Below, one piece after another: positions 1-2,534 of a DNA stretch of 12,014 bases; the first letter of the stretch is position 1; the number at the start of each line of letters is the position of its first letter. The stretch lies in assembly GCA_014379665.1 (NCBI GenBank), contig JACMLK010000442.1, forward strand, positions 1 to 12,014, read 5' to 3'. The translations under genes and the position numbers were made by a program. The notes beneath the pieces are model-generated. The model worked only from the letters and a program-made list of their open reading frames with translations. It was not told the origin of the DNA and ran no database searches. This DNA is from Saprospiraceae bacterium (GTDB taxonomy: Bacteria; Bacteroidota; Bacteroidia; Chitinophagales; Saprospiraceae).

Positions 1-74
1 GAGATTATAGCTCAGCTGGTTAGAGCGCCGGATTGTGGTTCCGGGGGCCGTGGGTTCAAGTCCCATTAGTCTCC
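1..74 (+). tRNA. tRNA-His (anticodon GTG)
   Basis: A complete cloverleaf can be folded. The acceptor stem pairs 1-7 with 67-73 (one T-G wobble). T8 and A9 are followed by D-stem 10-13/23-26. The anticodon stem 28-32/40-44 encloses a 7-nt loop with GTG at 35-37. The variable loop has 5 nt, and T-stem 50-54/62-66 encloses TTCAAGT. The discriminator is C74. In bacteria tRNA-His carries an extra G at -1 opposite C73; here that base would lie just before the window. The 3' CCA is not encoded: after the discriminator the sequence reads CAT, so CCA must be added by nucleotidyltransferase. The promoter lies outside the window. Confidence 0.96.
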
Positions 75-85
75 CATTCAAACAA

Positions 86-123: not shown

Positions 124-286
124 TAGTGCTCTGTCCAGAAAAAGAGTTAAATTATAATGGTAGTTATTTTTTTAAAGATCAAGACAAAAAACACAGGCAT
201 AGCTGTAGCTATGGCGAGTATTTTTAACGCAGAAATTTAGAAAAAGAACAACATTTCATTAAGTTCTTTTTCTTGACGGATCACTA
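124..286. mobile_element. MITE-like element, 163 bp, 22-bp TIRs
   Basis: Positions 124-145 and the reverse complement of 265-286 match at 19 of 22 bases; both begin TAGTG and share the inner block AGAAAAAGA. The outermost bases at both ends are TA, as expected of an element inserted at, and duplicating, a TA dinucleotide (the habit of IS630/Tc1-mariner elements). No transposase is present, so it would be non-autonomous. Internal structure: a 7-bp inverted repeat at 198-213 (CATAGCT, 2-nt gap, AGCTATG) and an 11-bp perfect hairpin at 239-249/263-273 whose right arm overlaps the right TIR. A third, direct copy of AGAAAAAGA lies at 239-247. The repeats are seen directly. The mobile nature and family are inferred; a conserved structured RNA is the alternative. 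Confidence 0.6.
157..240 (+). CDS. Possible 27-aa peptide inside the MITE-like element
   Basis: An ATG at 157 opens a frame of 27 codons closed by TAG at 238-240. It fills most of the space between the two terminal inverted repeats. The peptide begins MVVIFLKIKTKN and ends in a hydrophobic, small-residue stretch (GIAVAMASIFNAEI). It could be a vestige of a transposase C-terminus or a genuine micro-ORF. No clear ribosome binding site is seen, and a frame this short is easily open by chance. I do not recognise a family. Confidence 0.15.
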   Translation: MVVIFLKIKTKNTGIAVAMASIFNAEI

Positions 287-2220: not shown

Positions 2221-2451
2221 GTGAAGAAGATTTGGAACTCCTTAAAGAAGCTATTTGACTACTTAAAGAAACTATTTAACAACTCGAAGAAGATATTTGA
2301 CCACTTGAAGAAGCTATATGAGTACCTAAAGAAGCTATATGAGTACCTAAAGAAGCTATTTGAGTACCCTAAGAAGCTATTTGAGTACTTGAAGAAGCTA
2401 TTTGAAAACCTGTAGAAGGTTTTTGAACACTTAAAAAGGCTATTTAACCGT
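2221..2451. repeat. 21-bp tandem array, 11 units
   Basis: Eleven contiguous diverged copies of a 21-bp unit, starting at 2221, 2242, 2263 and so on. The core is AAGAAGCTATTTGA followed by (T/A/C)AC; units at 2305-2388 are nearly identical and the ends more degenerate. The period is exactly 21, about two helical turns and seven codons. From GTG 2221 one frame encodes a 64-residue heptad peptide (LKKLFEY-like) ending at TAG 2413. The next plus frame carries TGA or TAA in all nine complete central units (after GCTATT/GCTATA or a variant). The minus strand is also open (2456-2259), as any 3n period tends to give. I treat it as a non-coding tandem repeat. The flanking 2452-2534 shows nothing recognisable. 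Confidence 0.9.
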
Positions 2452-2534
2452 ATCAAAAAACCCGGAATGGTAGCTAATTATCTTCATTCTAGTGAGAAAT
2501 GCCCCGCTTCCTTCCACATCATAAATCCTAACAA

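Follow-up and report, generated by a model that had tools for sequence, protein, structure and literature searches.

MITEs are normally explained as internal deletions of a single insertion sequence (IS), an origin under which their middles should be unrelated to one another and free to drift. Archaeal MITEs are described as often resembling an IS over less than 20 nt at the ends (PMC3852290), and Nezha is named in an account of related elements (PMC3733652) in which the REP repeats of RAYTs are given as 20–40 bp palindromes tagged at one end, the tags being GTAG and CGTC. Elements of the IS630 group duplicate TA, as stated for ISY100 (PMC2170065). Effects at the level of RNA have been put forward for some of the small intergenic repeats: a role of RNase III has been proposed for the hairpin transcripts of Neisserial MITEs (PMC2229807, PMC2649163), and the effect of ERIC on mRNA is described as dependent on its orientation (PMC2229807).

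The element described here lies in a 12,014-nt stretch of a Saprospiraceae bacterium genome (contig JACMLK010000442.1, assembly GCA_014379665.1; the whole stretch is hereafter termed the window), and its features are collected in Table 1. A preliminary description, made from the letters of the window, had claimed 22-bp terminal inverted repeats (TIRs) agreeing at 19 of 22 positions with TA at both ends, and the window sequence bears this out: compared by eye, positions 124–145 and the reverse complement of 265–286 differ at three of 22 positions, and both termini of the 163-bp element start with TA. The third, internal copy of the inner block is likewise present (AGAAAAAGA at 239–247), as is the claimed 11-bp hairpin, formed by 239–249 with 263–273. 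The stated absence of a transposase also agrees with the reading frames, in that no ORF of at least 60 aa falls within the element; one ORF overlaps its left part (33–227, TTG start, 64 aa) and begins in the tRNA gene. The whole element is an imperfect palindrome, three copies from its own genome also matching on the opposite strand over 162–163 bp at 70%, and as single-stranded DNA it folds at −26.4 kcal/mol, compared with −11.4 on average over 200 shuffles (z = −5.9). A REP or GTAG repeat moved by RAYTs is ruled out by the 163-bp length, the 22-bp TIRs and the TA ends. Elsewhere in the window (2221–2456), tandem YLKKLFE-like heptads make up a short ORF that is overlapped by another on the opposite strand; it adjoins the gene of a PMT_2-domain membrane protein and looks like a DNA tandem repeat.

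Table 1. Positions of the element, its parts and its upstream context in the window.
Feature	Position	Strand	Remarks
Whole MITE, TA to TA, 163 bp	124..286	+	The CAAG(G/A)C strand ("top strand") is the + strand of the window
Left TIR	124..145	+	14 of the outermost 15 positions equal the end of the L237 IS630, the first 12 unbroken
Right TIR	265..286	-	19/22 against the left TIR; 13 of the outermost 15 positions equal the end of the L237 IS630
Structured core with arms	152..257	+	Covariance model R1, 97.3 bits; the sequence is among the 20 training sequences of R1
Outer helix 1, 5' side	167..177	+	Pairs with 235–245; all 11 of 11 pairs changed on both sides in some of the 20 families of alignment A1
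Outer helix 1, 3' side	235..245	+	
First internal loop, left side: conserved CAAGAC (consensus CAAGGC)	180..185	+	
First internal loop, right side: conserved AACGCAG	226..232	+	
Helix 2, 5' side	184..192	+	Pairs within 218–228; covariation
Apical stem-loop (helix 3)	196..215	+	Covariation
Third copy of the inner TIR block	239..249	+	Can pair with 263–273 (11-bp hairpin)
tRNA-His gene, upstream context	1..75	+	Followed by a terminator-like hairpin at 84–112

Copies exist in the own genome and in related genomes, as the MITE reading of the preliminary description had led one to look for, and their homology stops at the TIRs, which in the own genome is seen among the copies printed. A BLAST search of this genome with the element returned 29 match rows, which manual sorting reduced to 20 places, each on its own contig, with copies or fragments (the window included); full-length copies of ∼163 bp number five. 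The copy on contig C454 has the same arms and is 96 bp long, the middle (core) being missing, and longer copies of 235–239 bp on C389, C418, C86, and C327 carry ∼70–80 bp extra in the left half of the middle, as does C372, which is cut by the contig end. The element was matched in 18 of 60 genomes chosen as relatives (own included), with full-length copies in the same-genus genomes G003, G004, G007, and G008. In G004, end-sites with at most one mismatch amount to 220 + 228 = 448, vs. 4 + 6 = 10 for a reversed control pattern, and there are at least 150 structured cores. Short, core-less copies of 43–137 bp make up six of 58 in that genome, a low estimate given that the G004 loci were mostly fetched for holding the core, and 11 more near-full-length copies also miss the strict core pattern of that count. 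On CALDTJ contigs (L046, L057, L069, L083, L085, and others), many matches lie ∼34 bp from the locus end, which is the contig end; the repeat breaks assemblies, and draft genomes probably understate its copy number.

Of 17 and then 150 genomes scanned for the IS630 transposase domain PF13358, 5 and 47 matched. Genome G576, from the family of the window organism, harbors an autonomous IS630 of 1270 bp from TA to TA (locus L237, 695–1964) with TAGTGCTCTGTCAAG at both ends, and the agreement with this end over the outermost 15 positions, given for the window in Table 1, is 15/15 in the own-genome copy on C63. This IS630 comprises two adjoining ORFs (156 and 218 aa), the first with HTH_32 and the second with DDE_3, and NCBIfam NF033545 (transpos_IS630) scores 103.1 bits on the second and 51 bits on the first (cut-off 100). 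A 141-bp, TA-bounded MITE with the end of this IS630 stands in tandem to it, with a TA in common. A full-length IS with matching TIRs, which the preliminary description had proposed to seek, was thus found in G576 and not in the own genome. Two further pairs of similar kind were found: one end of the L185 IS630 reads TAAGTACTAGGACA, as in the L095 MITE, and the ends of the L209/L239 IS630 (TATACCCGTC..AAGTGGTTTGGG) are near those of the L044 MITE (TATACCCAAACGAAAGTGGTTTGGG). Separately, an IS630 with ends TAGTGGTCTGTCAA (L232 / L251, G526:C279) stands in tandem with a MITE-like element, as in L237, and this MITE-like element has a weak match to the core model (E = 0.005). In L255 (G660:C307), at ∼1324–2766, an IS630 with ends TAAGTACA(C/A)TGTAAAATAAA is flanked on both sides by palindromic MITE-like copies (near TAAGGAACGCTCAAAAAATAAG) inverted to each other, and the whole may be a composite.

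Two other candidates for a full-length IS, C351:1604–3137 in the own genome (suggested by the spacing of its ends) and L172, hold ordinary-looking genes instead. No transposase of the L237 IS630 subfamily was found in the window genome (G000, 65% complete) or in G001–G008, some of which carry MITEs of the window's family, and a search for the L237-type transposase matched 40 of 398 genomes of the family. An autonomous partner in the same genome is not strictly required, and partners get lost. The partner missing from the own genome may have been lost, may have been missed by the 65% complete assembly, or may be too diverged.

The sites at which the window's MITE family is inserted also have the character of IS630 targets. 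Among 63 such sites, TA is found at both ends in 47, C precedes the left TA in 50, G follows the right TA in 41, and both occur together (C-TA...TA-G) in 34; CTAG is reportedly the preferred target of IS630, as the title of a 1991 paper by Tenzen and Ohtsubo has it. At 12 tandem junctions, seven share exactly TA and five overlap by three bases and so lack one. Tandem pairs with a common TA are frequent for MITEs of the window's family in G004 (L175, L177, L180, L182), each junction reading CTAG, and this suggests that they insert preferentially into their own ends. Of 11 joined sites looked up in 10 genomes of the genus, one gave an insert-free orthologous locus with both flanks, in G007, located by eye between a stop codon and a terminator-like hairpin; the flanks are ∼74% alike, such that the single TA is not readable to the base. 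The preliminary description had set homology running on beyond the TIRs, with no empty sites, against a MITE, and the orthologous G007 locus lacks the element. Its MITE reading holds on the copies that end at the TIRs, the insert-free locus and the full-length IS630 with matching ends, and we regard the 163-bp element as an IS630-type MITE with near certainty. The preliminary description needs correcting on two points: the termini are those of a known group, IS630, and the centre, noted there as an internal repeat, is confined neither to this family nor to Bacteroidota, being common to MITEs with unrelated ends in three phyla.

In the search of the 60 genomes, many relatives matched only positions ∼50–115 of the element. 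The core is a two-loop hairpin, in which the internal loops CAAGGC/AACGCAG and GCAG/CGAG are conserved. Scanned with the exact pattern, 395 genomes of the phylum gave a match in the own genome only; the exact pattern was therefore considered too strict and was replaced by a search with covariance model R1, which found the core in 15 of 198 genomes of the class (own included) and in six more own-genome copies belonging to another TIR family. This second own-genome family (L302, L303, L304, L305, L306, and L301, on contigs C430, C444, C297, C11, C11, and C274) has ends near GAGTATGTTTAAA and the same core, with the A-tract/T-tract of helix 2 turned into T-rich/A-rich by paired changes. A core-pattern search of a named genome collection gave at least 115 stretches, mostly from Saprospiraceae and Chitinophagales MAGs, and further carriers include Mesonia aquimarina, Moheibacter lacus, a Flavobacteriales MAG, the Bacteroidetes MAG GSL.Bin30, and two clostridial MAGs. 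In the 126 occurrences read, one core stands at the centre of palindromes with quite different ends (TAGTGCTCTGTC, TAAGGGAGTAGGCA, TAAGTACCTGAGCA, TAATACCAATTTGAC, TATACCCAAACG, TAAGTAACGACG, TAAGTACTAGGACA, and more), and several termini may surround one core within one genome, e.g., in the CALDTJ and JANSWP assemblies.

The core is also present in eight Burkholderiales plasmids, where it was first met through a distant blastn match and its relatives, and in Clostridia. Clostridial MAG G986 holds 26 copies of the core, and 41 of 197 genomes of its family match (G986 included), which counts against contamination as the source of the clostridial matches. The clostridial termini are again diverse, among them GAACCTGTTC, bounded by TTA at either side, GGGTGTGCTGACAC, and GGGACCTCTGAC; the style of the clostridial ends (TTA GAACCTGTTC ... 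GAACAGGTTC TTA) and that seen in Variovorax suggest IS5-like partners with TNA targets. The core was absent from viral contigs and phages searched with the exact pattern and by distant blastn. The core thus recurs in MITEs with unrelated termini in at least three bacterial phyla.

The structure of the core is evidenced by covariation. In alignment A1, comprised of 20 non-redundant examples from 22 clusters (L067 and L148 left out), cells changed on both sides of a pair number 87 across the 20 families, vs. 26.3 after shuffling and 25–36 with slid partners. Helix 2 is nearly invariant in A1 by construction, its letters having been fixed by the search pattern. In 39 wider model matches, at loci hand-picked among those that already had a model match, helices 2 and 3 covary too, with 224 both-side changes in all vs. 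68 shuffled and 60–105 slid, and 21 clostridial matches in 20 loci gave 126 vs. 40 shuffled and 22–36 slid. Across the same 39 rows, the loop letters C.AGG and AACG..G are kept (left loop: A in 37, G in 37, and G in 35; right loop: A in 39, C in 35, G in 38, and G in 38). Because R1 was trained on the exact pattern, it favors these loop letters, while the helices are free to differ, and do. These unpaired letters are conserved in all three phyla.

A second line of evidence comes from the arms. Because the core is asymmetric, it fixes the orientation of the nearly symmetric arms, and the left and right arms outside it were aligned under a scoring that treats G.T and A.C equally. Families were defined as arms below 70% identity (80% for the A1 clustering and the whole-element fold set), and elements with N or too close to a contig end were excluded from the clustering, fold, and strand counts. 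In the first set (21 families), G.T mismatches outnumber A.C by 83 to 31, with G.T in excess in 18 families, the reverse in none, and three ties; in arms-only RNA folds the top (core) strand is the more stable in 21 of 21, by a mean of 10.4 kcal/mol, and whole-element RNA folds favor the core strand in 26 of 26. The second set, 19 families of model matches, gave G.T 73 vs. A.C 27 (13 families vs. 4) and a better fold of the core strand in 15, of the other strand in three, and a tie in one. The third, 14 clostridial families (one second match in L347 was dropped before the count), gave 58 vs. 20, 13 families vs. none, and a better core-strand fold in 14 of 14. Sets 2 and 3 were oriented by a model that tolerates G-U, a possible bias of which the first set is free.

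When the sets were pooled and the clustering redone (45 families, 17 + 15 + 13), G.T exceeded A.C by 97 to 35 at more than 20 nt from the core (33 families vs. 5), and folds of the arms beyond 15 nt favored the core strand by 38 to 7. With DNA energy parameters the core strand is favored by 43 to 2, an equal asymmetry, so that RNA and single-stranded DNA are not separated by this measure. Other mismatches follow the same direction (A.G 67 vs. C.T 16; G.G 13 vs. C.C 0), T.T and A.A being even at 26 vs. 32; mispaired C is avoided on the core strand, as in structured single strands. The asymmetry weakens toward the termini (G.T 2 and A.C 5 at 51–60 nt), and A.G vs. C.T is reversed at 41–50 nt (6 vs. 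16), as expected given that double-stranded TIRs must stay symmetric. From the covariation together with the asymmetry of arm mismatches, selection seems to act on the fold of one strand, probably as RNA: the selection of the core as a strand-specific fold is very likely, and we lean toward RNA over DNA as the form in which the selected strand works.

The placement of the elements among genes was examined in a sample of 125, of which three lie inside an ORF (as called by a simple caller) and 39 are without a neighboring gene on one side. The 83 with both neighbors comprise 19 between convergent genes, 19 between divergent genes, and 28 in sense and 17 in antisense between co-directional genes, counts that are weighted heavily by G004 copies; other neighboring gene pairs are 75 convergent, 72 divergent, and 315 co-directional. 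The orientation bias between co-directional genes (28 vs. 17) is not significant, and a cis role in mRNA is therefore not supported. Several Burkholderiales copies lie between co-directional, operon-like genes, and in L317/L318 two such genes stand 202 bp apart, vs. 14 in Burkholderia multivorans. The operon-like sites, together with a placement unlike that of terminators, lead us to favor a part for the hairpin, as transcript or as single strand, in the element's own life, with a putative host factor reading the conserved loop.

As a whole, these observations are best explained by an IS630 MITE that carries a separately conserved, strand-selected hairpin core, most likely acting as RNA, a reading to which we assign a probability of about 0.62. 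An IS630-family DDE transposase, supplied in trans, would bind the TAGTGCTCTGTC ends and excise the element, which would reinsert at TA, preferably within CTAG, with duplication of the TA; ends, target, and copies are observed, and the part given to this particular transposase is presumed. The middle would constitute a separate conserved domain, carried by MITEs of many different termini and selected as a single strand of fixed polarity, as covariation and strand asymmetry indicate. An RNA form would arise when neighboring promoters transcribe the element in the core sense, and its long hairpin may be recognized by a conserved host factor for double-strand RNA processing or RNA binding. An insertion in an operon or at a 3' end could thereby be processed or tolerated where it would otherwise be lethal, which would let core carriers outgrow core-less MITEs. 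This path from host-factor recognition through tolerated insertions to the success of core carriers is doubtful as a whole. The core-less short copies (the 96-bp C454 copy and those in G004) count against the overall explanation.

The alternative that fares best, although we consider it unlikely, is that single-stranded DNA is the functional form; folded on the lagging strand or after excision, the top strand would be bound as a hairpin, and this would serve the priming, protection, or re-integration of the element. The asymmetry under DNA energies, noted above, accords with this, as does the near-equal frequency of A.G and G.T (67 vs. 83), A.G mismatches being well tolerated in DNA, and a non-significant gene-orientation bias is what selection on the element, rather than on host mRNA, would produce. 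The published description of IS630 transposition, a double-strand cut-and-paste process that duplicates TA (PMC2170065), tells against this alternative.

A plain MITE would need neither form. In that case the core would be inherited ballast, the complementarity of the arms a product of template switching, and the strand asymmetry mutational, and we judge this improbable. Template switching does yield both-side changes without selection, and top-strand arms are G-rich and C-poor (C 0.12, G 0.18), which raises G.T over A.C somewhat; however, by hand arithmetic this composition predicts a G.T/A.C ratio of ∼1.4, and 2.7 is seen, and the excesses of A.G over C.T and of G.G over C.C do not follow from C-to-T changes alone. 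Unpaired letters, moreover, are kept across three phyla, though switching should erase asymmetry.

Also quite improbable is a core that is itself a mobile or recombining module, inserting into the centre of unrelated palindromic MITEs. The C454 copy keeps the same arms without the core, the core's left half is longer by ∼70–80 bp in at least four own-genome copies (C389, C418, C327, C372), and the CALDTJ and JANSWP assemblies, with several termini around one core, could be read in the same way; yet helix 1 of the arms runs on into the core without a break and covaries with it, the arms pair over 34–48 positions in 21 families with no free core in that set, and the 96-bp form is explicable as a hairpin deletion. 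Terminators would gather between convergent genes, and a bidirectional transcription terminator that makes insertions harmless is very improbable as the role of the core: although the minus strand has a predicted terminator-like site (213–198) and A- and T-tracts flank the apical stem, divergent placement is as frequent as convergent, 45 of 83 elements lie between co-directional genes, several Burkholderiales copies among operon-like ones, and the conserved loop letters are not needed for termination.

Under the preferred reading, an IS630 MITE with a separately conserved hairpin core, the middle is the conserved part, crossing phyla and unrelated termini with the marks of a selected single-strand structure. 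A bolder form of it, which we offer tentatively, is that one selfish hairpin domain of fixed polarity, be it RNA or single-stranded DNA, may have spread through at least three phyla inside MITEs moved by different transposases, the ends being interchangeable packaging and the core the true replicator. This bolder form would define a class of mobile element by its internal structure and not by its transposase. The preferred reading, if true, would give a directly testable answer to why bacterial MITEs are long hairpins, some at 150 or more copies per genome, and would predict a host or element factor that reads the CAAGGC/AACGCAG loop. The covariance model can be used to annotate intergenic repeats in many genomes.

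At the Rfam 15 gathering cut-offs, a scan of the window returned the tRNA only, and a scan of 15 clostridial loci returned a single sRNA match, away from the core. By E-value, the best match over the window element was Thr_leader at 25.8 bits (cut-off 55), and nine other loci gave one weak match, again away from the core; in the loci scanned, neither element nor core is thus matched by any Rfam 15 family at or above its cut-off. We know of no lead to the hammerhead, the hairpin ribozyme, the kink-turn, or the integron attC from a comparison with the core. A core common to unrelated MITEs was not found described in the open-access literature searched, most subscription papers and preprints lying outside this scope.

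Of the described systems, the element resembles IS630 and ISY100 (Tc1/mariner-IS630 group) in its outer terminal bases, TA ends, and preference for CTAG targets, but differs in being 163 bp long without a transposase, its partner IS having been found in another genome of the family and not in the own genome. Archaeal MITEs and Nezha are alike in that the MITE is tied to an IS by its termini only, whereas the passages of PMC3852290 and PMC3733652 that concern them mention no shared internal domain. With the Correia elements (NEMIS) of Neisseria, compared here by description and not by sequence, it shares the form of a short, TA-ended MITE with long and short versions, but here the core is common to unrelated TIR families across phyla. 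ERIC (IRU/RU-1) and YPAL (RU-2) of the enterobacteria, likewise compared by description, are also small, intergenic, MITE-like hairpins, YPAL differing in that it is described without TA termini and with TSDs of 3–26 bp (PMC2229807). For the role of the core, the nearest precedents may be the RNase III role proposed for Neisserial MITE transcripts and the orientation-dependent effects of ERIC. The element is of a known kind as a MITE; what is new is its shared, structured, and stranded core.
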